From assembly GCF_020010925.1 (NCBI RefSeq), contig NZ_JAGJBZ010000001.1, positions 558,001 to 622,000 of the forward strand: a stretch of 64,000 nt of DNA. The letters run 5' to 3'. This document shows, piece by piece, positions 39,284 through 51,016 of this stretch; position 1 is the stretch's first letter; the number at the start of each line of letters is the position of its first letter. Under the pieces are notes generated by a model. It was given only the letters and a program-made list of their open reading frames with translations. It did no database searches and was not told the origin of the DNA. This stretch comes from Streptomyces griseiscabiei (lineage in GTDB: Bacteria; Actinomycetota; Actinomycetes; Streptomycetales; Streptomycetaceae). The position numbers were made by a program, and so were the translations under genes.

Positions 39284-39468
39284 CGCCCGCACCACCCCTG
39301 CGCCACACGCCACCCCGCCGCCCCGCCCCGAACCACCCGTCCGGACGCACCCCCACCCGGCCCACCCCAACAGGCACCCCGCACCCGCCCCCCGCACGAT
39401 GCAAAGGGAACCAGGGAACCGCCGACCGGCGGCGGTCCGTTCGGTCCGTGCTCTCGGGAGGATCCGCA

Positions 39469-40515
39469 ATGACCGCGATGACCGCCAGTCTGGAGCAGCT
39501 GCGCCGCTGCCACTTCGGCGTCGATCTGGGAGCCGCGCGGACCCGGGTGTTCGTGAAGGGCGCGGGCCTGGTCGTCGACCAGCCGAGCGTGGCCGCCGTG
39601 AACACCCGTACGGGCGCGCTGATCGCGGTCGGGGAGTTCGCGGAGAAGATGATGGGCCGTACGCCCGACTACATCCGGGTCGTGCGGCCCGTCTCCGGCG
39701 GCACCGTCGTCGACATCGAGATGGCCCAGCGGATGCTGCGTCAGCTCCTGGGCGACCGGGTCCGCCGCAATCTGCGCCGCAAGCCCGTGCTGCGCGCCGC
39801 CGCCTGCACCCCGCACGACGCGGACCCGCTCGCGCAGCGCGCCACGATCGAGACCCTGGTGGGTCTCGGGGCGCGCCGGGTGGAGATGGTGGACACGCTC
39901 ATCGCGGCGGCCGTCGGCTGCGGCCTGCCGGTCGAGCAGCCCGAAGCCACCATGATCATGGTCTGTGGCGCGGGCGCCACCGAGCTGGCCGTCCTCTCCC
40001 TCGGCGCGGTCGTCAGCGCGGTACGCATCCCCGTCGGCGGCGAGGCCATCGACCACGCGATCGTGCAGCATCTGCGGCTGCGGCACGAGCTGACGCTGCC
40101 GAGCCAGTCCGTACGGCCGCTGCAGCTCGCCCTGTCCGGCAACGGCCTCACCCCGCAGGGCCCCGAGTCCACCGAGATCCACGGCCTCGACGTGGCGACC
40201 GGGCTCGCCCGCTGCGTCCAGGTGGACACGGCGGCCGTGCGCGACGCCATCCAGACCCCGCTGACCGCCGTGGTCGACGGCATCGGCAAGGTGCTCCGCG
40301 ACTGCCCGCCCGACCTGGTGGCCGACCTCGCGGACCGGGGCATCATGATGGTCGGCGGCAGCGCCCTGCTCCCCGGTTTCGACCAGATGCTCCGCCACGC
40401 CACGGGCATGCCGGTCCACATCGCCGAACGCCCCGACGTCTGCGCCGCCCTGGGCATCGGCGCGATGCTGGAGGGCCGCATCGAACCCATCAGCCTGGAC
40501 CCGGTGGGCGACTGA
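39469..40515 (+). CDS. mbl: Mbl, MreB-like actin homologue
   Basis: 348 residues from the ATG at 39469, preceded by GGGAGGA; ATG 39478 is an alternative. The actin-fold motifs are visible: CHFGVDLGAARTRVFVKGAGLVVDQPSVAA (phosphate 1), GEFAEKMMGRTPDYIRVVRPVSGGTVVDIEMAQRMLRQLL, MIMVCGAGATELAVLSLGAVV (phosphate 2, in a diverged form) and LADRGIMMVGGSALLPGFDQML (adenosine region). The phosphate-2 loop reads G-A-G-A-T instead of the usual DIGGGTT, so ATP hydrolysis may be altered. Streptomycetes carry a second MreB-type protein, Mbl, involved in the spore wall. It stands alone here, downstream of the malonate operon. Confidence 0.85.
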   Translation: MTAMTASLEQLRRCHFGVDLGAARTRVFVKGAGLVVDQPSVAAVNTRTGALIAVGEFAEKMMGRTPDYIRVVRPVSGGTVVDIEMAQRMLRQLLGDRVRRNLRRKPVLRAAACTPHDADPLAQRATIETLVGLGARRVEMVDTLIAAAVGCGLPVEQPEATMIMVCGAGATELAVLSLGAVVSAVRIPVGGEAIDHAIVQHLRLRHELTLPSQSVRPLQLALSGNGLTPQGPESTEIHGLDVATGLARCVQVDTAAVRDAIQTPLTAVVDGIGKVLRDCPPDLVADLADRGIMMVGGSALLPGFDQMLRHATGMPVHIAERPDVCAALGIGAMLEGRIEPISLDPVGD

Positions 40516-40767: not shown

Positions 40768-41259
40768 ATGCCAGGGCCCGTGACCCGGATCGGTATCACC
40801 GGACACCGGGAGATCCCGGAAGCCGCCCTCTGGGCCGTCCGTTCCGGCATCCGGGCGGAGTTACGGGGCCGGGCCACCACCACCCGGGCCCTCAGCAGCC
40901 TCGCCGCGGGCGCCGACCAGCTCTTCGCGGAGACCGCCCTCGCAAGCGGCCTGCAGCTGACCGCCGTCATCCCCGGCATGGACTACGAGCCCCACCTCGG
41001 CGACGACGAGGTCCGGGCCGCGTACCGCAGGCTCCTCAAGTGCTGCGCCGAACGCGTGCAACTGCCGTACGAACGTACGCACGAGGAGGCGTACTACGCG
41101 GCCGGCCGCTACATCGTCGACCACGCCGACCGCATGATCGCCGTCTGGGACGGCGCCCCGTCCCGCGGTCTCGGCGGCACGGCCGACATCGTCGACTACG
41201 CCCACCTCACGGGCGTCCCGGTGACGGTCCTGTGGAGCCCGGGCGTGCGCCGCGCCTGA
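40768..41259 (+). CDS. SLOG-domain protein, predicted nucleotide-derived ligand sensor
   Basis: 163 residues from the ATG at 40768 (GGAGG 11 bases upstream; GTG 40756 is an alternative). A Rossmann-like SLOG/LOG pattern is complete: RIGITGHREIPEAALWAV, ALSSLAAGADQLFAETALASGLQLTAVIPG and, near the end, IVDHADRMIAVWDGAPSRGLGGTADIVDYAHLTGVPVTVLW. SLOG domains bind or process nucleotide ligands and are recurrent sensors in bacterial conflict systems. The gene faces a SLATT/DUF4231 membrane protein, its usual partner, 33 bp away and convergent. Ligand and activity are inferred. Confidence 0.82.
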   Translation: MPGPVTRIGITGHREIPEAALWAVRSGIRAELRGRATTTRALSSLAAGADQLFAETALASGLQLTAVIPGMDYEPHLGDDEVRAAYRRLLKCCAERVQLPYERTHEEAYYAAGRYIVDHADRMIAVWDGAPSRGLGGTADIVDYAHLTGVPVTVLWSPGVRRA

Positions 41260-41292: not shown

Positions 41293-42246
41293 TCAGGACC
41301 CGAACCGCACCAGCCAGTCCGTGTGCTGGGGCGAGACGACCCGCTCCGCCTCCGCGACGGCGTCGGCCCACCCGTCCTCCTTGACGGTGGTGCCCATGGC
41401 GACGCGCAGGGTGTTCAGGTCCTGTTCGACGAGCTTGTGCGCGTACGTGAGCGGCCGGTGCCGCCGTACCTCCTGCCAGGCGACTCCGGCCGCGGCGGCG
41501 GCACTCAGCACTCCGGTCGGATCCCAGCGGCCCTCGATCACGCCGAGCGCCCTGAGCACGGCGGCCAGCAGCGCGAGCAGCGTCAGGAAGGTCGTCATCC
41601 CCGACCAGCGCACGGACGCCCGGTGGGCCTGCCCGGCCTTGTTGCCGTACCAGGCGAGCTGCTCCGACACCCGGTCCCGCAGATAGATGTCCCGCCGCGC
41701 GGCGAACCCCTTGGCCCGCACCGCCCGCATCACGGGCGTGATCTGCCCGAGCCCACGCTCACGGGGACTCTCCCTCGGGTCCTCCCACCCCACCTTCCGC
41801 AACTCGCTGAGCCGCTCCTCCAGCCGCTCGGCGAACATCGCCTCGGGGTTGGCCAGCCGCGTCGGAAACGGCCCCCCGTGCACCATGAACTGCCACGCCA
41901 GCGACTTCACCACCTCGGCCGCCGCCCGATGCGCCTGCCACTGGACCCGGGCCCGGCGCCGTGACGCGTGGAGCCCGATCACGATCGTCAGCGCGTACAG
42001 CACCGCCGCCACCGCCGACGGCACCCGGCTCCCCACCCGCTCCGCCAGCGAGGCGGTCGCGGTCGCGAGCAGCAGCACGACCAGTTGCGTACGGACCACC
42101 TTGAACGACTCACCCTGACGGGCTACCGCCCGCTCGTCGCACACATGGAACAACGGGGGCAGATCTCGGTCACTCACCGTGGTACTGGGGCCGGGCATCG
42201 CAGCCATGCGCACCTCGTACGGATACGGAGTCGACGGAACGGTCAT
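41293..42246 (-). CDS. SLATT/DUF4231 membrane protein, predicted pore-type effector
   Basis: 317 residues from the MTVPSTPYPYEVRM methionine (42246); the open frame to 42372 lacks support. Two hydrophobic hairpins are present: VVRTQLVVLLLATATASLAE with SAVAAVLYALTIVIGLHAS (about residues 52-95), and WSGMTTFLTLLALLAAVLRALGV with VLSAAAAAGVAWQEV (about 215-262), each followed by helical cytoplasmic parts. This corresponds to two SLATT-type units in one chain. SLATT proteins (SMODS- and SLOG-associating 2TM effectors) are predicted to open pores on a nucleotide signal. The convergent SLOG gene supports the assignment; no experimental function is known to me for this family in streptomycetes. Confidence 0.8.
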   Translation of the reverse strand: MTVPSTPYPYEVRMAAMPGPSTTVSDRDLPPLFHVCDERAVARQGESFKVVRTQLVVLLLATATASLAERVGSRVPSAVAAVLYALTIVIGLHASRRRARVQWQAHRAAAEVVKSLAWQFMVHGGPFPTRLANPEAMFAERLEERLSELRKVGWEDPRESPRERGLGQITPVMRAVRAKGFAARRDIYLRDRVSEQLAWYGNKAGQAHRASVRWSGMTTFLTLLALLAAVLRALGVIEGRWDPTGVLSAAAAAGVAWQEVRRHRPLTYAHKLVEQDLNTLRVAMGTTVKEDGWADAVAEAERVVSPQHTDWLVRFGS

Positions 42247-42297: not shown

Positions 42298-42326
42298 TTG
42301 ACATCCGGGCAGCGAACACCTAGCGG
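42298..42326 (+). promoter_or_regulatory. Predicted promoter of the fxs operon
   Basis: TTGACA (42298-42303) and TAGCGG (42321-42326) are separated by 17 bp, matching the streptomycete vegetative pattern TTGAC-N17-TAG. An AT-rich patch (tgataaaaacg) follows at 42331. The predicted start would lie about 115 bp upstream of the fxsA ATG. The -10 lacks the final T, so strength is uncertain. Confidence 0.5.
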
Positions 42327-42448
42327 CTCGTGATAAAAACGCGAAAGTCTGGACCCTGTCGTCCAAACCCATGTCCGAGCGTCAGCCGAAAAGGACCTCG
42401 TCGGCAAGGGGCCGATGACAGCAATCCCTTTCGAACTGGAGCGACGAG

Positions 42449-42628
42449 ATGAACCTTTCCTTTCCCATGACGACGCGTGGATCGGACACCGCCCGGTCGG
42501 CTCACACACGGCTCGCCCCGCTCGCGGCGGTCGCCGCGCACGGGCCCCGCGCGCAGCGCTCCACCGGACGGGTGACGGACGCCCGCGACCTGCGCGTCGC
42601 CCGGCCCGGGTTCACCTCCAGCATCTGA
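42449..42628 (+). CDS. fxsA: FxsA, FxSxx-COOH precursor peptide
   Basis: A 59-residue ribosomal peptide starting MNLSFPMTTRGSDTARS, with GGAG 8 bases before the ATG. It ends in GFTSSI: F-T-S-S-I is the invariant F-x-S-x-x C-terminus that defines the family. The body is rich in Ala, Arg, Thr and Ser (APLAAVAAHGPRAQRSTG) and has no cysteine. It directly precedes a radical SAM/SPASM gene, from which a long hairpin separates it. The peptide is the likely substrate of FxsB; the modification and the fate of the product are unknown. It is too short for standard gene callers. Confidence 0.88.
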   Translation: MNLSFPMTTRGSDTARSAHTRLAPLAAVAAHGPRAQRSTGRVTDARDLRVARPGFTSSI

Positions 42629-42636
42629 CACGCGCC

Positions 42637-42682
42637 GACGGGGCCTCAACCTCCTTGTTGATCAAGGAAGTTGGGCCCCGTC
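42637..42682 (+). terminator. Long hairpin between fxsA and fxsB (attenuator or partial terminator)
   Basis: gacggggcctcaacctccttg (42637-42657) pairs with caaggaagttgggccccgtc (42663-42682) around a TTGAT loop, with one mismatch and one bulge over 20 base pairs. It lies 8 bp after the fxsA stop and 42 bp before the fxsB start. No U-tract follows (gtcctgtc), so it may be partial, giving far more peptide mRNA than maturase mRNA. Confidence 0.8.
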
Positions 42683-42724
42683 GTCCTGTCATCCCGGTGT
42701 GACGCGAGGGCTTACACTGCCGAA

Positions 42725-44875
42725 GTGAGGGACCCCGCGATCCAGCAACTGGTGCTCAAGATCCACAGTCGGTGCGATCTGGCCTGCGACCACTGCTATG
42801 TGTACGAGGCATCCGACCAGTCGTGGCGCTCACGGCCCACCGTCATCGCCGAGGAAACCCTCGACCAGGTGTCCCGTCGCCTCACCGAGTACGTCCTTGC
42901 GAAAAGCCTGGATTCCGTCACCGTCATTCTGCACGGCGGCGAACCCCTCCTCGCCGGTCCTGCCCGACTGAGACGAATCTGCGCGGAACTCACCCGCGCT
43001 CTCGCCCCGGTCACCTCGCTCGATCTGCGTATTCACACCAACGCGGTGCGGCTGAACAGAGATCATCTGCGGGTCTTCGACGAATTCCGGGTGAAGGTCG
43101 GAATCTCGCTCGACGGCGACCGTGTCGCCAACGACCGCCACCGGCTCGACCGCCGGGGCCGCAGCAGCTACGACCGGGTCCTGCGCGCCGTCGAACTGCT
43201 CCGTCTCCCCGAGCACCGGCATCTGTACCAGGGGCTCCTGTGCACGGTGGACGTGGCCAACGACCCGGTCGCCGTGCACGACGCGCTGACCTCCCTCGAT
43301 CCGCCCCGGATCGACTATCTGCTCCCGCACTCCACCTGGGACACCCCGCCTCCGGGCCATGAACCCGGCGGCCCGGCGACACCGTACGCCGACTGGCTGC
43401 TGAAGGTCTTCGACCGGTGGGAGGAGCAGGGCCGCCCCATGCCGGTGCGCACCTTCGAGTCGGTGCTGAGCACCCTGCGCGGCGGCCCCAGCCTCACCGA
43501 GGCGCTGGGGCTCGCGCCCTCCGACCTGGCGGTGATCGAGACCGACGGCACCTTCGAGCAGGCCGACTCGCTCAAGACTGCGTACGAGGGCGCCCCCGCG
43601 ACCGGCTACGACGTCTTCCGGCACGGTTTCGCGGAGTTCGCCGAACACCCCGGTGTCCGGGCCCGCCAACTGGGTCTCGCCGGAGTCAGCGAGGCCTGCC
43701 GCCGCTGCCCGGTCGTGGAGTCCTGCGGCGGCGGCCTCTACGCCCACCGCTACAGCGCCGACAAGGGCTTCGACAACCCCTCGGTGTTCTGCGCCGACCT
43801 ACGGGGCCTGGTGGAGGGCATCGCCGAGCGGATCACCGACCGCACCCTGCACCCGGCCGTCAAAGACGCCGAGGAACTCCGCCTGTCCCAGCTGGAGTTG
43901 GACCGGACCCTGCTGGCCCGGGTCAACGCCGCGCTGACGGATCGCCCCGAATGGCAGGCGGCCTGGCGGGCGCTGGTCGCGCTCGACTCCGAGCCCTCCG
44001 GTGCCGCGCACCTCAACACCGTCCTCGCCCACCCGTATCTGCGGCCCCTGCTGCGCCGCTCCCTGGACACCCCCGACCTCCCCCACCTGATGGCCGCGGT
44101 CACGGCGGCCACGGTCCTCGCGCGGACGGACGCCACCCTCACCTGGCGGCAGCCCGGCCGGGACCTCCACCTCCCGACCCTCGGAACCCTGCGGCTCTCG
44201 GCACCCGGGCACGTCGAGTGCGCGGTCACGGAGAACGGCCTCCGGGTCACCGGAACCGGCGACGACGGCAGCGAACTCGGCGTCGGATGGCGGCCGTTGG
44301 AGACGACGGAACTCACCGACGGACCCACCCTGCTCCTCGACGACGCCGACCCGTACCGCGACTGCTTCGGAGCGCCCGCGACGGCCCCGCTCTCCCCGGA
44401 CGATCTGACGCTCTTCGGGAAGCGGCTGCGCGCGGCCCATGAGGCGCTGGACGCACGGGAGCCCGGCTGGCGCAAGGGAGCCGACGCGCTCGTCGTCACC
44501 ACGGTCACCCCCCTCGCCCCGGGCTCGGGGCTGCGGCTCGGCGCGCACGCCTTCGGCGCGCTAGGGGCGGCCGTCGACTTCGAGCCCGAGGACCTCGTCC
44601 GCGCACTGCCGCTGCTGGGGCGCAGATCCCGGCTCGCCTCGCTGCGGCAGATCACGGATCTCCATGTGCCGGGCAGTGACGTCGGACGCCTGCTCGACGA
44701 AGCGAGCGAGTGCGTGGGGGGCGTCGCCGCGATGGACGGCGGCAGCGACGCGCAGCGGCGACGGGCGCGGGCCGCGCTGGACGCCCTCGACTCCGCCCCG
44801 GCGGAGCAACTCACGGAGACCGGAGCCCACTTGGTGAACGAACTGCGTGCGGAACTGGCGGCGGCGCATGACTGA
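42725..44875 (+). CDS. fxsB: FxsB, radical SAM/SPASM maturase with inactivated metallohydrolase extension
   Basis: 716 residues from the GTG at 42725; an ATG at 42671 lies within the upstream hairpin and is unlikely. The radical SAM [4Fe-4S] motif is C17-x3-C21-x2-C24 (CDLACDHCYVYE), followed by VTVILHGGEPLLAG and ISLDGDRVANDRHR. SPASM-type cysteines follow near 326-362 (CRRCPVVESCGGGLYAH, FCADL). The C-terminal 330 residues are the metallohydrolase-like extension; no HExxH is present, as expected for the inactivated form. Such enzymes crosslink or epimerise peptides using SAM and iron-sulfur clusters. Its stop overlaps the AAC(3)-like gene by 8 bp. FxsA is the predicted substrate. Confidence 0.9.
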   Translation: MRDPAIQQLVLKIHSRCDLACDHCYVYEASDQSWRSRPTVIAEETLDQVSRRLTEYVLAKSLDSVTVILHGGEPLLAGPARLRRICAELTRALAPVTSLDLRIHTNAVRLNRDHLRVFDEFRVKVGISLDGDRVANDRHRLDRRGRSSYDRVLRAVELLRLPEHRHLYQGLLCTVDVANDPVAVHDALTSLDPPRIDYLLPHSTWDTPPPGHEPGGPATPYADWLLKVFDRWEEQGRPMPVRTFESVLSTLRGGPSLTEALGLAPSDLAVIETDGTFEQADSLKTAYEGAPATGYDVFRHGFAEFAEHPGVRARQLGLAGVSEACRRCPVVESCGGGLYAHRYSADKGFDNPSVFCADLRGLVEGIAERITDRTLHPAVKDAEELRLSQLELDRTLLARVNAALTDRPEWQAAWRALVALDSEPSGAAHLNTVLAHPYLRPLLRRSLDTPDLPHLMAAVTAATVLARTDATLTWRQPGRDLHLPTLGTLRLSAPGHVECAVTENGLRVTGTGDDGSELGVGWRPLETTELTDGPTLLLDDADPYRDCFGAPATAPLSPDDLTLFGKRLRAAHEALDAREPGWRKGADALVVTTVTPLAPGSGLRLGAHAFGALGAAVDFEPEDLVRALPLLGRRSRLASLRQITDLHVPGSDVGRLLDEASECVGGVAAMDGGSDAQRRRARAALDALDSAPAEQLTETGAHLVNELRAELAAAHD

Positions 44876-45641
44876 CGTCGCCCGGCTCACCGACGCGCTG
44901 GGCCGCCTGGGTGTCCGGCCGGGCGGTGTTCTGATGGTGCACTCCTCGCTGCGCGGCACCGGATGGAGCCCGCAGGACGTCCGCGACGCCCTCGTCGACG
45001 CGCTCGGCCCCGACGGCACGCTCGTCGTGCCCGCCTTCACCCCGGAGAACTCCGACACCTCTCCCGCCTACCACCGCCGTACCGAGGGGATGACCGAGCG
45101 GGAGAAGAGCGAGTTCCGCGCGTCCATGCCGCCCTTCGAACCGGACGCCACCCCCTGCACCACCATGGGCGCGCTCGCCGAGTGCGTGCGGACGACCCCC
45201 GGCGCGGTCCGCAGCGCGCATCCGCAGACCTCGTTCGCCGCGATCGGGCGGCGCGCCGAGGCGCTTCTCGCCGGTCACGATCCGCACTGCCACCTCGGTG
45301 AGCGGTCCCCGATGGCGACGCTGTACGAGGCCGACGCCCAGATCCTGCTGCTGCGGGTCGGCTTCGAGGTGTGCACCGCCTTCCATCTCGCCGAGTACCG
45401 GATGACCCCGCGGCCCGCGACCCGGACGTACCGCTGCGTGGTGGAGGACAAGGGCAATTGGATCGATTACGAGGATCTCTCGCTGTACGACGGCGACTTC
45501 GGTGAGATCGGCGCTCGCTTACCTCATGATTTGTTCGCGGAAAGGGAGTTCGCGGGAAAACCGACGTTTGTGTTCGGGATGCGCGATGCTGTCGACACGG
45601 CGCGGAAGCTGATGTCCGGATATCGCTCCGAAATGACGTGA
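44868..45641 (+). CDS. AAC(3)-like N-acetyltransferase within the fxs operon
   Basis: 257 residues from the ATG at 44868, overlapping the fxsB stop by 8 bp. Family signatures: GGVLMVHSSLRGTGW (residues 21-35), LVVPAFTPENSD, SAHPQTSFAAIGRRAEALL, and DKGNWIDYEDL near 200. AAC(3) enzymes transfer acetyl from acetyl-CoA to the 3-amino group of 2-deoxystreptamine aminoglycosides; many chromosomal members do not act on drugs. Its coupling to a peptide maturase suggests the natural acceptor may be the FxsA product or a sugar/amine linked to it, which is inference. It may nevertheless show up in resistance gene screens. Confidence 0.88.
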   Translation: MTDVARLTDALGRLGVRPGGVLMVHSSLRGTGWSPQDVRDALVDALGPDGTLVVPAFTPENSDTSPAYHRRTEGMTEREKSEFRASMPPFEPDATPCTTMGALAECVRTTPGAVRSAHPQTSFAAIGRRAEALLAGHDPHCHLGERSPMATLYEADAQILLLRVGFEVCTAFHLAEYRMTPRPATRTYRCVVEDKGNWIDYEDLSLYDGDFGEIGARLPHDLFAEREFAGKPTFVFGMRDAVDTARKLMSGYRSEMT

Positions 45642-45649
45642 AACGAGCC

Positions 45650-45677
45650 ATGTGCCAGGGGGGTTGATCGGGCACAT
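45650..45677 (+). promoter_or_regulatory. Inverted repeat before fxsC
   Basis: ATGTGCC (45650-45656) and GGCACAT (45671-45677) are perfect inverse arms around a 14-nt spacer rich in G. It begins 8 bp after the acetyltransferase stop and ends 60 bp before fxsC, so it could be an internal operator or a second attenuating hairpin that separates the peptide-modification genes from the signalling genes. Confidence 0.45.
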
Positions 45678-45737
45678 TGTTGGTTCCGGCTGGAGGGCGC
45701 CTGGGCGGGGGCACGAGGCATCGAAAGGCGGGGGCGT

Positions 45738-47069
45738 GTGGACACATCTGCGCGGGGGCGGGCTCCGGACAACCGGCCGTACTTCTTTCTCAGTTACGCG
45801 CACACTCCGCCCTCCGGACCCGACAGCGGCGACCCCGACCACTGGGTGCACACGCTGTACAAGGATCTGTGCGCGGACGTCCTGGCCCTCACCGCTCATC
45901 CGCGGGGGACGCCCGCGGGGTTCCTGGACCGGGAGATGCGGTCCGGGGAGGGCTGGCCGGACCGGCTCAGCGAGAACCTCGCGCACTGCCGGGTGTTCGT
46001 CCCGCTGTACTCGCCCCGCTATTTCTCCAGCGACAACTGCGGACGCGAGTGGTTCACCTTCGACGAACGCATCCGCGAGGCGCGCAACGCCGGCCTCGGC
46101 GACATCCCGGCCATCGTCCCGGTGCTGTGGACGGGCATGGACCTCGAAGGACTCCCCGAGTCCGTGCGGCAGATCCAGGTCGAGCGCAGCAAGTTCGGGG
46201 AGCGTTACTCGTCGTACGGGATCTACGGGTTGATCAAACTGAAGCGGCTGCGCGACGAGTACGAGGAGACCGTGTACGGGCTCGCCCAGCGGATCGTGCA
46301 CGTCGCCGAGAACACACCGCTGCCGTCGAGCCGGCCCCGGCCGTACGAGTCCACGCACAGCGCGTTCCGTCCGCACGGCGAGGGGCCGCGCCGTATCCAT
46401 CTCACCGTGGTGGCGCCCAACCGGAGTTCCGTGCCGGAGGGCAGGGACTCCGTCCCCTACGGCGAGGACGCGACGGAGTGGAATCCGTACCACGGCGAGT
46501 CGCGGCGCCCGCTGTCCGCGCTGGCGGAGGAGCTGATCCGGTCCCTCGACTACCGCATCACCGTGTCGGACTTCGACCTCCCGGACCCCGGCACCGACGG
46601 GCTCACCGCGGTCGCGTCCGAGGCCGACGGGACCGGGCAGCCGCCCGAACCGCACCCGGGAATCCTGCTGCTCGACCGGTGGGCGCTGCTCGACCGGGAC
46701 CGCCGACACCGGCTCAAGACGTTCGACTCGTCCGCGCACCCCTGGGTCGGCGCGATCGTCCCCTGGAACCGCCTCGACCTCCAGTGCCGCGGCGAACAGG
46801 GCGAGCGGCTGCGGGAGGACCTGGAGGACACCCTGCCGCTGATCCTGGAGCGGGGGCGCCGCGCCAAGTGCTGGGCCGCGGTCAACGGCGTACCCACCCT
46901 GAAGCAGTTCACCGACATCCTGCCGGTGGTGGTGGCCCAGGCGACCCGGCAGTTCCTGAAGCACGCCAAGGCCCATCCGCCGCCCGGTCCGGCCACCCCC
47001 CGGCCGCGGCTGAGCCTCGCCGACCCCAGCCACCTCGATGCGGATTCCGACCACGGAGGACAGGCATGA
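45738..47069 (+). CDS. fxsC: FxsC, TIR-like protein
   Basis: 443 residues from a GTG. The N-terminal 200 residues are TIR-like: RPYFFLSYAHTPPSG opens like a TIR first strand, DHWVHTLYKDLCADVLAL the first helix, PAGFLDREMRSGEGWPDRLSENLAHCRVFVPLYSPRYFSSDNCGREWFTF a box-2 region including the acidic residues, and AIVPVLWTG the next strand. The C-terminal half (about 215-420) carries a second domain with RRIHLTVVAPNRSS and HPWVGAIVPWNRLDLQC, not assigned. Some TIR domains hydrolyse NAD; a catalytic Glu is plausible in GREWF but unproved. Its stop overlaps the fxsT start. Confidence 0.9.
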   Translation: MDTSARGRAPDNRPYFFLSYAHTPPSGPDSGDPDHWVHTLYKDLCADVLALTAHPRGTPAGFLDREMRSGEGWPDRLSENLAHCRVFVPLYSPRYFSSDNCGREWFTFDERIREARNAGLGDIPAIVPVLWTGMDLEGLPESVRQIQVERSKFGERYSSYGIYGLIKLKRLRDEYEETVYGLAQRIVHVAENTPLPSSRPRPYESTHSAFRPHGEGPRRIHLTVVAPNRSSVPEGRDSVPYGEDATEWNPYHGESRRPLSALAEELIRSLDYRITVSDFDLPDPGTDGLTAVASEADGTGQPPEPHPGILLLDRWALLDRDRRHRLKTFDSSAHPWVGAIVPWNRLDLQCRGEQGERLREDLEDTLPLILERGRRAKCWAAVNGVPTLKQFTDILPVVVAQATRQFLKHAKAHPPPGPATPRPRLSLADPSHLDADSDHGGQA

Positions 47070-50000
47070 CGGCCCGCAAGGACGGACGCATCATCACCTT
47101 CTACTCGTACAAGGGGGGTACGGGCCGCACGATGGCCCTGGCCAACGCGGCCTGGATCCTGGCCGCCAACGGCAAGCGGGTCCTGGCCGTCGACTGGGAC
47201 CTGGAGGCCCCGGGCCTCGACCGTTTCTTCCAGCCCTTCCTCGATCCGAGCGTTCTCGCGTCCACCACCGGCGTCATCGACATGATCACCGAGTACTGCT
47301 GGGCGGCGACCACCGGCGGCCCGCGCAGCGGCCCCTGGCACCGGGACTACGCCCGCGTCGAGCCGCACGCGGTCTCCCTCGGCCCCGAGCGGCTCGGGCT
47401 GTCCTTCCCCGAGGGCGGCTCGCTCGACTTCCTGTCCGCCGGCCGCCGCAACCGGGAGTACTCGGCGGCCGTGTCGTCGTTCGAGTGGGACAACTTCTAC
47501 GAGCGGCTGGGCGGCGGGCAGTTCCTGGACGAGCTGCGGGCGGACATGAAGGCGTCGTACGACTACATCCTCATCGACAGCCGCACCGGCCTGTCGGACA
47601 GCGCGGACATCTGCACCATCCAGATGCCGGACGTCCTCGTCGACTGCTTCACGCTCAGCGGCCAGTCGCTGGACGGGGCCGCCGCGGTGGCCCGCAGCGT
47701 CGAAGGGGGCCAGCACAAGCGGCGGATCAGGGTGCTGCCGGTGCTGATGCGCATCGACGAGGGCGAGAAGCGCAAGGTCGACGCGGGACGGGCGCTGGCG
47801 CGGCTGCGGTTCGAGGGGCTGCCCCGCGGCATCGACGGCGAGGAGCTCGGCGCCGAACAGCAGGACGCCTACTGGGGTGCCATGGAAATCCCTTACGTAC
47901 CGTTCTACGCGTACGAGGAGACGCTGGCGACGGTCGGTGACAAGAGCAATATCGCCAACTCCCTGCTGTCCGCCTTCGAGCGGTTGACGAAGGTGATCTC
48001 CGACGGCGAGATCACCGCCCTGCCACCGGTCCCCGAGCCGGTGCGCCAGCGCTGTCTCGAGGCGTTCACCCGACGGCAGCCGATGACGGACATCGTCGTG
48101 GTGTACGCGGCGGAGAACCGGATGTGGGCGGACTGGGTGGAGGCCGTCCTCCGGCAGACCGGCTGCAACGTCACCCTGCACGACGTGTCCACCGGGCCGC
48201 CGGAGCGGCTGGACCCGGCGTCGCGGGCCCTGCTGCTGCTGTCCCACGCCCTGCAGAAGTCCCGGCACGCCCAGCCGGTGCTGCGCTCCCTGACCGACAC
48301 GGCCCTCGCGATCCCGCGCGCCACGACGGTGCCGCTGCGCGTCGACGAGGTCCGCTTCCCCGATGTGCTCGTGGACCAGGAGCCGGTGGACCTCTACCGC
48401 TTCGACGCCGACCAGTGCGTCGCCGCCCTGCTCGCGGCGCTGAAGCTGCCGGAGCGGCCCGACGACCTCGCCGCCGTGGAGCCCCGCTTCCCGGGCAGCG
48501 CCCCCACCGTGTGGAACGCGCCGCAGCGCAACACCACGTTCACCGGCCGCAGCGGAATCCTGGACGAGCTGCGTGAGCAGCTGCGCGGCGGGGCGTCGGC
48601 CGTGGGCACCCAGCCCAAGACCCTGTTCGGTCTCGGCGGCGTCGGCAAGACACAGGTCGCCCTGGAGTACGTGCACCGGTTCATGGCCGACTACGACCTG
48701 GTGTGGTGGATCTCCGCCGAGCACGGCGACGGCGTCACCTCCGCCCTCGCCGAACTCGGCGCCCGGATCGGCGCGTCCGGTGGCGACGACATGACCCTGG
48801 TCAGCCAGGAGACCGTCCGGATGCTCGCCGAGGGAACACCGACGAAGCGCTGGATCCTCGTCTTCGACAACGCCGACAACCCCGAGGAACTCACCCGGTT
48901 CTTCCCGCAGGGCGGCGGCGGGCACATCCTCGTCACCTCCCGCAACCAGACCTGGGAGCAGCGGGGCGCCTCACTGCCCGTCGACGTCTTCTCCCGGCAC
49001 GAGAGCGTCGAGCACCTCTCCCGGCGCGCCCCCGGGCTGAGCGCCGAGGAGGCGGACCGGGTCGCCGAGGCGGTCGGCGACCTGCCGCTGGCCGTGGTGC
49101 AGGCGGCGGCCTGGCTCGCCGAGACCGCCACCCCCATCGAGGAGTACCTGCGGCAGCTGAACGAGCAGACCGCCGGCGTACTGGACCTCAACCAGCCCGC
49201 CGACTACCCGCAGACGGTGGCGGCGACCTGGAACATCTCCATCTCCCGGCTGAGGGAACGCTCCCCCGCCTCGGTGCGGCTGCTGCAGCTGTGCGCGTTC
49301 ATGGCCCCCGAGCCGATCTCCTCGCACCTGCTGTACAGCCGGGAGATGCTCGACGAGCTGAAGAAGGTCGACCCGAGCCTGCAGGAGAGCCTGATGCTGG
49401 GCCGGGTCATCCGGGAGATCGGCCGCTTCGCCCTCGCCAAGGTCGACCAGGCCAGTACCAGCATCCAGGTCCACCGGCTGGTGCAGGCGGTGATCCGCTC
49501 CCGGCTCTCCGAGGAGGAGCAGCGGCAGGCCCGGCATGTCGTGCACACCATGCTCGTGGGAGCCCGGCCACCGGGCGACGAACCCATCGACGACGCCGAG
49601 ACCTGGCCCCGCTTCGCCATCATCTGGCCCCATCTGAACGCCTCCGAGCTGCGCGACTGCCATGAGGTCGAACCCCGCCGGCTGCTCATCGACCGGGTCC
49701 GCTACCTGTGGAAGCGCGGCGACTTCCCCGGCGCCCGGAATCTCGCCGAGGACCTGCTGGGGCACTGGAAGGAGACGCTCGGCGAGGACGACATGCAGTA
49801 CATGTACCTGCACGGGCAGCTCGCCAACGTGCTGCGCACCCAGGGGCGTTTCGTGGAGGCGTGCGCCATCGACGAGGAGGTGCGCGAGCGGCAGCTGCGG
49901 GTGCTGGGCCCCACCCATCCGCACACCTATGTCACCACCTCCAGTCTCGCCAGCGACCTCGCCGCCCTCGGCGAGTACACCAAGGCCGTGAAGCTGGCCC

Positions 50001-51016
50001 GCGAGGCCCACCAGGGATTCAGCCAGATCTTCCACGAGTCGCACGGCCGGACGCTCAACGCCGCGAACAACCTCGCGCTCGCGCTGCGCATGGTCGGCCA
50101 CTACGACGAGGCCCGCGACGTCGACCAGGACACCTACGCCCGCCGCCGGGAGGTGCTCGGCCCCGACCACCCCTACACCTTGGTCTCGGCCCAGGGCCTC
50201 GGCCGCGACCTGCGGGAGGTCGGCCGCTACACCGACTCGGTGGCGGTCCTGTCGGAGGCGTACGAGACCCACAAGCAGATCCTCGGCAAGGACTTCCCCG
50301 GCACGCTCAGCTGCGCGAAGTCGCTCGCCGTGTCACTGCGGCGGGCAGGCCAGTTCGTCGACGCGCGCCGCCTCACCCAGGCGACGCTCGCGCAGTACCG
50401 GACCCAGTACACCCGGGACAAGTATCCGGACCCGATCCCGGACTCACTCGCCTGTGAACTGAACCTGGCGGCCGACCTGTACGCCGCCGACGAGCCCGAC
50501 CGGGCGCGGGACACCGTCCGGGGTGTGCTGGAGCACTATGTGAAGGTCCCGGGCCGGGAGCACCCCTACACCCAGGCCGCGCTCAACAATCTCGGCATCT
50601 ATCTCTGGGCCTGCGGGGACGCCGAGGAGGCCGAGGAGGTGTTCCAGCAGGTGACCGGGCGGATGGCGGCGGGGCTCGGCGAGGAGCATCCGCACACGCT
50701 CTTCGCCCGCGCCAACCACGCCAACGTCCTGGCGGAGAAGGGCCGTCCGGAGGAGGCGTGGGCCCTGGAGGAACCGGCCCGCAACGTCCTCAGGTCCGTC
50801 CTCGGCCCGCAGCACCCGGAGACGCTGGCCGTCATCAGCAACTCGGCGCTGACGCTGCGCTCGCTGGGCCGCGAGGAGGAGGCCCAGCGGCTGCGCGAGG
50901 CGACCCTCGCCGAGCTGCGCCGGCTCGGGCAGAAGCTGGGCGAGGGCAACGGGATCACCCGGCTGGTGGGGCAGCGGCGGCGGGTGTACCGGGACCTGGA
51001 GCCGCTGGCGGTGTGA
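47066..51016 (+). CDS. fxsT: FxsT, ParA-like/TIR-like/NB-ARC/TPR signalling protein
   Basis: 1316 residues from the ATG at 47066 (ATGA overlap with fxsC). Order: a ParA/MinD-type ATPase (deviant Walker A YSYKGGTGRTMALANAAW, residues 13-30; DYILIDSRTGLSD) to about 320; a short TIR-like domain (MTDIVVVYAAENRMWADWVEAVLRQTG, about 340-470); an NB-ARC/STAND ATPase (FTGRSGILDELREQL, GLGGVGKTQVALEYV near 523, RWILVFDNADNPEEL, HILVTSRN) to about 780; and at least eight tetratricopeptide-like repeats to the end (for example HTYVTTSSLASDLAALGEYTKAVKLAREA). STAND proteins oligomerise on a trigger sensed by their repeats. No transmembrane segment is seen. It is probably the switch of the fxs system. Confidence 0.9.
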   Translation: MTARKDGRIITFYSYKGGTGRTMALANAAWILAANGKRVLAVDWDLEAPGLDRFFQPFLDPSVLASTTGVIDMITEYCWAATTGGPRSGPWHRDYARVEPHAVSLGPERLGLSFPEGGSLDFLSAGRRNREYSAAVSSFEWDNFYERLGGGQFLDELRADMKASYDYILIDSRTGLSDSADICTIQMPDVLVDCFTLSGQSLDGAAAVARSVEGGQHKRRIRVLPVLMRIDEGEKRKVDAGRALARLRFEGLPRGIDGEELGAEQQDAYWGAMEIPYVPFYAYEETLATVGDKSNIANSLLSAFERLTKVISDGEITALPPVPEPVRQRCLEAFTRRQPMTDIVVVYAAENRMWADWVEAVLRQTGCNVTLHDVSTGPPERLDPASRALLLLSHALQKSRHAQPVLRSLTDTALAIPRATTVPLRVDEVRFPDVLVDQEPVDLYRFDADQCVAALLAALKLPERPDDLAAVEPRFPGSAPTVWNAPQRNTTFTGRSGILDELREQLRGGASAVGTQPKTLFGLGGVGKTQVALEYVHRFMADYDLVWWISAEHGDGVTSALAELGARIGASGGDDMTLVSQETVRMLAEGTPTKRWILVFDNADNPEELTRFFPQGGGGHILVTSRNQTWEQRGASLPVDVFSRHESVEHLSRRAPGLSAEEADRVAEAVGDLPLAVVQAAAWLAETATPIEEYLRQLNEQTAGVLDLNQPADYPQTVAATWNISISRLRERSPASVRLLQLCAFMAPEPISSHLLYSREMLDELKKVDPSLQESLMLGRVIREIGRFALAKVDQASTSIQVHRLVQAVIRSRLSEEEQRQARHVVHTMLVGARPPGDEPIDDAETWPRFAIIWPHLNASELRDCHEVEPRRLLIDRVRYLWKRGDFPGARNLAEDLLGHWKETLGEDDMQYMYLHGQLANVLRTQGRFVEACAIDEEVRERQLRVLGPTHPHTYVTTSSLASDLAALGEYTKAVKLAREAHQGFSQIFHESHGRTLNAANNLALALRMVGHYDEARDVDQDTYARRREVLGPDHPYTLVSAQGLGRDLREVGRYTDSVAVLSEAYETHKQILGKDFPGTLSCAKSLAVSLRRAGQFVDARRLTQATLAQYRTQYTRDKYPDPIPDSLACELNLAADLYAADEPDRARDTVRGVLEHYVKVPGREHPYTQAALNNLGIYLWACGDAEEAEEVFQQVTGRMAAGLGEEHPHTLFARANHANVLAEKGRPEEAWALEEPARNVLRSVLGPQHPETLAVISNSALTLRSLGREEEAQRLREATLAELRRLGQKLGEGNGITRLVGQRRRVYRDLEPLAV

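Follow-up and report, generated by a model that had tools for sequence, protein, structure and literature searches.

A SLOG-fold gene and a SLATT membrane-protein gene accompany the FxSxx-COOH peptide system in Streptomyces

The window analysed here is a 64,000 bp (64-kb) stretch of the Streptomyces griseiscabiei genome (contig NZ_JAGJBZ010000001.1, positions 558,001 to 622,000) that contains an FxSxx-COOH (fxs) system, in which genes for a small peptide and its radical SAM/SPASM maturase adjoin genes for TIR and STAND proteins. The fxs system is already known. Its companions described below, a gene for a SLOG-fold protein and a gene for a membrane protein with SLATT domains, are new to the literature searched, as is the exchange of the SLATT protein for another membrane protein with an RyR domain. 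The genes were classified using the family models of NCBIfam release 20.0, with their curated cut-offs, and the domains of Pfam, and their relatives were sought in a survey of 150 Streptomyces genomes. In these genomes 143 fxsB genes exceed the family cut-off, and those scoring >540 bits are here called class 1. The anatomy of 55 of the 56 class-1 loci was examined; the one in G033 (L067), which has an internal stop, was excluded, and two others (L073 and L098) end at contig edges.

Five genes of the system lie on the forward strand. The 59-amino-acid precursor gene fxsA (42449–42628), with the core F55-T-S57-S-I, is followed by fxsB (42725–44875), which encodes the maturase, by a gene for an AAC(3)-like acetyltransferase with the Antibiotic_NAT fold (44868–45641; PF02522, 239 bits), by fxsC (45738–47069), which encodes a 443-amino-acid protein with an N-terminal TIR domain and the FxsC C-terminal domain, and by fxsT (47066–51016), which encodes a 1316-amino-acid protein with ParA-like (KGGTGRT), TIR-like, NB-ARC/STAND, DUF7779 and TPR parts. 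The first-pass annotation had described these five genes, including the FTSSI end of FxsA, at the same positions, with overlaps of 8 bp between fxsB and the acetyltransferase gene and 4 bp between fxsC and fxsT, and its domain reading of all five agrees with the NCBIfam and Pfam matches. It had also called the system complete. That holds for the five genes, but two linked genes, for SLOG and SLATT, fall outside the interval it gave, and the acetyltransferase is an optional member. In the 55 loci, FxsC was found in 50, the NB-ARC of FxsT in 52, the AAC(3)-like protein in 32, and SLOG and SLATT in 39 each. The His of HPQTS and the Glu of FHLAEY are conserved in 32 of 32 AAC(3)-like proteins.

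The SLOG-fold (YpsA-like) gene is at 40768–41259 on the forward strand (alternative start GTG 40780). Its open reading frame (ORF) encodes a single SLOG-like domain of approximately 160 amino acids that has no Pfam match and was assigned by predicted fold. The SLATT gene (41293–42246, reverse strand) is transcribed towards the SLOG gene and away from fxsA. It encodes a protein with two hydrophobic regions and with SLATT_3 (PF18184, 160 bits) and SLATT_1 (PF18181, 134 bits) domains, scanned on a longer ORF against cut-offs of 26.3. PDB sequence searches with FxsC, SLOG and SLATT returned no useful match. When the intergenic region between the SLATT gene and fxsA was inspected for regulatory motifs, the strongest block was the start region of the SLATT gene itself.

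The first-pass annotation had suggested a search for genes that co-occur with fxs; it overlooked the SLOG and SLATT genes and also the loss of HExxH described below. Close relatives of SLOG (>205 bits) and of SLATT (>250 bits) occupy the identical 42 of the 150 genomes, and for all but one of the 42 SLOG copies there is an fxsB no more than 15 kb away. Of these copies, 39 are near a class-1 fxsB, one is near a class-2 fxsB, one is near an fxsB fragment on a short contig, and one is apart. SLOG matches were listed down to 142 bits, and distance to fxsB was examined for those of at least 150 bits; none of the 51 weaker matches (150–205 bits) is near any of the 143 fxsB above the cut-off. The SLOG alignment was made from fxs loci, which inflates the scores of SLOGs close to fxs, whereas the SLATT search is free of this bias because its query was a single protein. 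Up to 24 candidates per genome were scored in the SLOG search and up to 15 in the SLATT search, so that misses are possible, and the hypergeometric values for the association (3e-38 and 2e-24) take no account of kinship.

In the 55 class-1 loci, SLOG and SLATT are always both present (39 loci) or both absent. With L114 and L115 added there are 41 pairs, all of them convergent, with stop codons 5–205 bp apart in 38. In one locus (L100, in G103) the two stop codons are 10.7 kb apart and SLATT still adjoins fxs. In a tree of the maturase domains from the 55 loci and three others, the SLOG/SLATT loci make up one 41-row clade (support 90) with two losses. Because they form one clade, we conclude that the pair was acquired once and retained through much divergence, rather than gained in 39 independent events. 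A further set of 80 named loci, retrieved with the SLOG alignment and including 14 shorter than 19 kb, contains SLATT in 78, fxsB in 71, FxsC in 68 and FxsT in 67. The nearest of these to the window, at 93%, is from Streptomyces caniscabiei.

The SLOG and SLATT genes could also be an independent module that merely adjoins an fxs system able to work without them. Orphan pairs do occur (L114, L132, L148 and L165), 17 of the 56 class-1 fxsB are without the pair, and within the genus the pair is confined to the one clade. Upstream of SLOG in the window there is in addition an MreB/Mbl gene (39463–40515) that is likewise conserved, flanking 31 of the 80 named loci; a gene of this type is also found near the FxsC of L049. 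However, among the long loci that have no mreB neighbour, fxsB is present in 37 of 38 and SLATT in 38 of 38, and the association is therefore not merely shared synteny, which weakens the case for the pair as a passenger. In eight loci the SLOG/SLATT pair is inverted and found downstream of fxsT, having moved together with respect to fxs to its other side, and SLOG recurs beside fxsA in a second family. An independent module thus appears unlikely.

The second family was sampled in 14 genomes with 21 class-1 fxsB, of which six are adjoined by SLOG. No SLATT was found in any of these six loci; instead, SLOG is accompanied in all six by a gene for a membrane protein with an RyR domain. The RyR domain was detected in all four of the proteins scanned and TrkA_N in three of the four, and the other two proteins are homologous by tblastn. 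In L061, L063 and L064 the membrane-protein gene, SLOG, fxsA and fxsB are consecutive and on the same strand, with SLOG just upstream of fxsA. The RyR-domain protein was not seen in any further locus examined. SLATT has been exchanged for the RyR-domain membrane protein in this family.

The assignment of fxsA is based on its conserved place and on the C-terminal motif kept in relatives rather than on the family model TIGR04268, which by itself does not settle it (26.6 bits; cut-off 28); the products of the other four genes exceed the NCBIfam cut-offs. In 50 of the 55 loci, a regular expression found an ORF ending in F-x-[S/A]-x-x in the 600 bp that precede the maturase domain. By eye, two further precursors have one extra Gly at the end, and in two the C-terminus continues beyond the motif. 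Such an ORF is present in 65 of the 71 fxsB-bearing named loci, with one more recognized by eye. The first-pass annotation had regarded the absence of an F-x-S-x-x peptide beside intact fxsB, fxsC and fxsT as counter-evidence to a peptide-read switch, and L097 comes close to being such a case, the only one: all three genes are present and no F-x-S peptide is visible within 700 bp. An F-x-A core replaces F-x-S in L047, L050, L054, L055, L057, L059 and L100 (FDAAL, FDASL, FNASL, FDAII, FDASI and FDAAI), so that the family name understates the motif.

Between fxsA and fxsB is a hairpin (42636–42683, forward strand), found by folding 42629–42700, with an energy of -38.2 kcal/mol (z -5.5) that none of 200 shuffled sequences equalled. 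Similar hairpins with altered outer stems are present in L094, L098, L116, L117 and L118, and the hairpin is missing from sister-group loci that have a spacer of 30–100 bp. It is possibly an attenuator or an RNA stabilizer. As the TTG at 42671 sits within it, the GTG at 42725 is the likelier start of fxsB.

FxsB matches TIGR04269 (590 bits; cut-off 370) and also NF040587, the ‘inactivated beta-hydroxylase extension form’ (356 bits; cut-off 225). Its nearest solved relative is the radical SAM domain of ChlB (9gm3, E 1.2e-80). In the C-terminal extension, which begins at approximately 43841, FxsB reads LLGRR where aligned relatives have HEFQH, and there is no HExxH elsewhere in the protein. The motif has been lost in 49 of the 55 loci, including the window, and is kept in six, none of which has SLOG or SLATT. 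The genome from which the window comes has four fxsB above the cut-off (G000:C4 76602; G000:C2 2260996, 2273742 and 2511140) and five FxsC, and its G000:C4 copy retains HExxH and has no SLOG/SLATT. In L065 (G007), the fxsB that adjoins SLOG, SLATT and AAC(3) is of class 2 and lacks the extension, which looks like a swap of the maturase.

The TIR-fold protein FxsC (NF040588, 235 bits, cut-off 130; TIGR04276, 150 bits, cut-off 55) has C101, G102 and E104, the last a candidate catalytic Glu, invariant in 50 of 50 sequences. FxsT (NF040586, 1020 bits, cut-off 300; NF047398, 140 bits, cut-off 90) retains the Walker-A Lys of the NB-ARC in 50 of 50, and its ParA P-loop has an Arg in 49 of 50. The TIR-like part of FxsT has no Glu in the window at the place of the C-x-x-E motif, and in five of ten relatives there is a W-E one residue later. 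Residues 452–729 of FxsT also match HaaT, which is the TPR protein in a different cyclophane system, at 49 bits against a cut-off of 1125.

A second FxsC in the same genome (L039, 9599–13478; G000:C2, at approximately 2.51 Mb) is part of a different arrangement, in which the FxsC domain pair forms a fusion with a SAV_2336-type vWA protein and has MoxR and VMAP-M2 genes as neighbours. It shares 87% DNA identity with the fxsC of the window over 1.2 kb, which suggests that FxsC was exchanged recently within the genome. Found here within a VMAP-MoxR conflict system, FxsC thus behaves as an exchangeable effector. No match to the VMAP, MoxR or vWA proteins of L039 was found in the 64-kb window (tblastn, E 1e-3). 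Elsewhere the core is found without the peptide arm. In S. geranii (L128, 10001–17180) SLOG, SLATT, fxsC and fxsT are kept and fxsA, fxsB and the AAC(3) gene have been lost from between SLATT and fxsC, while in L049, which has no fxsB, FxsC and FxsT have MoxR and a SAV_2336-like protein next to them. The TIR/STAND core can thus persist without the peptide arm, and its retention in L128, L049 and L097 argues for the peptide being a regulator rather than the end product.

A regulatory peptide could report the state of the cell to FxsT, with programmed arrest of the mycelium in development or stress, rather than defence against phage, as the outcome. The system is chromosomal and has been long inherited in many Streptomyces, often beside the MreB/Mbl gene, and no plasmid record contains 80% of FxsB. 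The 36 plasmid records that contain a SLOG relative are all of <60% identity, and an origin as a mobile element was rejected on these grounds. Conflict is nevertheless the better fit both for the patchy presence of the system, class-1 fxsB being found in 50 of the 150 genomes, and for the parts it has swapped with VMAP conflict systems, and we consider a developmental or stress switch improbable.

Alternatively, the product could be secreted and serve as an antibiotic or as a signal; the AAC(3)-like enzyme would then provide tailoring or self-protection, and the STAND and TIR proteins would act as regulators. The maturase and precursor are those of a genuine ribosomally synthesized and post-translationally modified peptide (RiPP). 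Among solved structures, FrbF (3sma, 174 bits), an enzyme of antibiotic biosynthesis, is closest to the acetyltransferase. A peptide toxin or signal has also been proposed as the FxSxx product (PMC7159879, Kaur et al. 2020). Against this, the locus was not found to contain a gene for a transporter or a peptidase, HExxH is lost from most loci, and L128 retains the core together with SLOG and SLATT after losing the peptide, maturase and acetyltransferase. We therefore regard a secreted product as more improbable again than a developmental switch.

Least probable by far is the published model in which the HExxH domain, as a metallopeptidase, cuts free a peptide that then serves as a toxin or a signal. 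Release by a zincin-like peptidase domain was proposed for the HExxH-bearing FxSxx systems (PMC7159879), and one HExxH enzyme showed proteolysis without a leader peptide (PMC12636437). However, the latter paper reports that HExxH domains of the kind fused to these maturases are alpha-ketoglutarate-dependent hydroxylases. With the motif gone from the window and from most of the 55 loci, peptide release has no intact enzyme here, and it was rejected for this lineage.

The first-pass annotation considered the chemistry of the product not established, and this is contradicted by work on a related maturase, MscB, which links C4 of Phe to the C-beta of Ser (review, PMC11002830), and by the NCBIfam name of the precursor family, ‘cyclophane-containing RiPP’. 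MscB, which acts on Phe-x-Ser, and ChlB/ChlBH are triceptide maturases of the same radical SAM family as FxsB, from which the FxsB of the window differs in having a hydroxylase extension without the metal-binding motif. The wiring of peptide maturation to STAND and TIR proteins, which had been put forward as unusual, was likewise already described in PMC7159879, where FxSxx systems are found with AP-ATPases and the stand-alone ones have an inactive MinD/ParA-like domain. The window shares with these stand-alone systems the FxSxx peptide, a radical SAM/SPASM protein, an AP-ATPase that combines TPRs with an inactive ParA-like domain, and TIR domains. It differs from them in the absence of HExxH, in the AAC(3)-like gene and in the linked SLOG and SLATT. 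The three mentions of SLATT in the main text of PMC7159879 concern other systems. Among the literature matches listed, with supplements outside the search, none joined FxSxx with SLOG or SLATT, which does not prove absence.

Links between TIR, SLOG and SLATT are known in other settings. YpsA-like SLOGs are said to include sensors of cyclic ADP-ribose, SLATT is a predicted membrane effector regulated by ADP-ribose, and TIR-SLATT neighbourhoods are found in firmicute phages (PMC9503650). Thoeris, with the TIR protein ThsB and the SLOG-containing ThsA, shares with the window TIR and SLOG proteins encoded together and the SLOG fold. However, the SLOG of Thoeris is fused to an effector domain such as SIR2 (or to a macro-domain effector), while that of the window is a single domain, and the likeness is one of working only. 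ThsA was rejected as a direct relative of the window SLOG, as it appears in the fold comparison behind YpsA, DprA and LOG. The VMAP (MoxR-vWA) ternary conflict systems have FxsC in common with the window, via the L039 fusion, but their MoxR, vWA and VMAP genes are unmatched there. PADLOC matched no system in the window and returned partial matches only, of FxsB to pVip (33 bits) and of FxsT residues 7–76 to PDC-M28B (76 bits).

The gene content, the linkage, the retention of intact motifs, the absence of HExxH and the exchange between SLATT and RyR are established. To account for them we propose a stand-alone fxs system with an arm made up of SLOG and a membrane protein, in which action would pass from FxsT to FxsC, SLOG and SLATT under regulation of FxsT by the peptide, a reading that we judge plausible but somewhat short of an even chance. 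From the chemistry of its family, FxsB would link Phe55 to Ser57 of FxsA. The cross-linked and probably uncleaved C-terminal peptide could then be bound by FxsT and set or hold its STAND state. The first-pass annotation had suggested that the modified peptide may be a signal or a decoy that the repeats of FxsT would read, with the TIR-like domain of FxsC as effector. By the logic of NLRs and AP-ATPases, the most likely trigger would be an attacking phage or the disappearance of the peptide, upon which FxsT would assemble and activate the TIR domain of FxsC. FxsC, with its invariant candidate catalytic Glu, may cleave NAD+ to yield an ADP-ribose derivative. The YpsA-like SLOG would sense or process this signal and so control the double-SLATT protein, which would permeabilize the membrane and stop the cell. 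More tentative is the specific form of an immune circuit gated by a RiPP, in which the cross-linked peptide would be the guard ligand of an NLR-like ATPase, and its loss or alteration would lead through an ADP-ribose signal from TIR and through SLOG to an exchangeable membrane effector; we consider this possible but doubtful.

If true, the circuit would be Thoeris-like, but with its sensor and its channel encoded by separate genes and with a ribosomal peptide as control input, and one locus would combine the chemistry of RiPPs with NLR-like switching and with signalling through TIR and SLOG. Natural variants suited to its dissection exist in L128, where the peptide arm has been lost, and in the second family, where the membrane part has been swapped. 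FxSxx peptides are widespread in actinobacteria, and the link to SLOG and a membrane protein turns a ‘peptide plus switch’ into a testable pathway whose second messenger and end point can both be measured.

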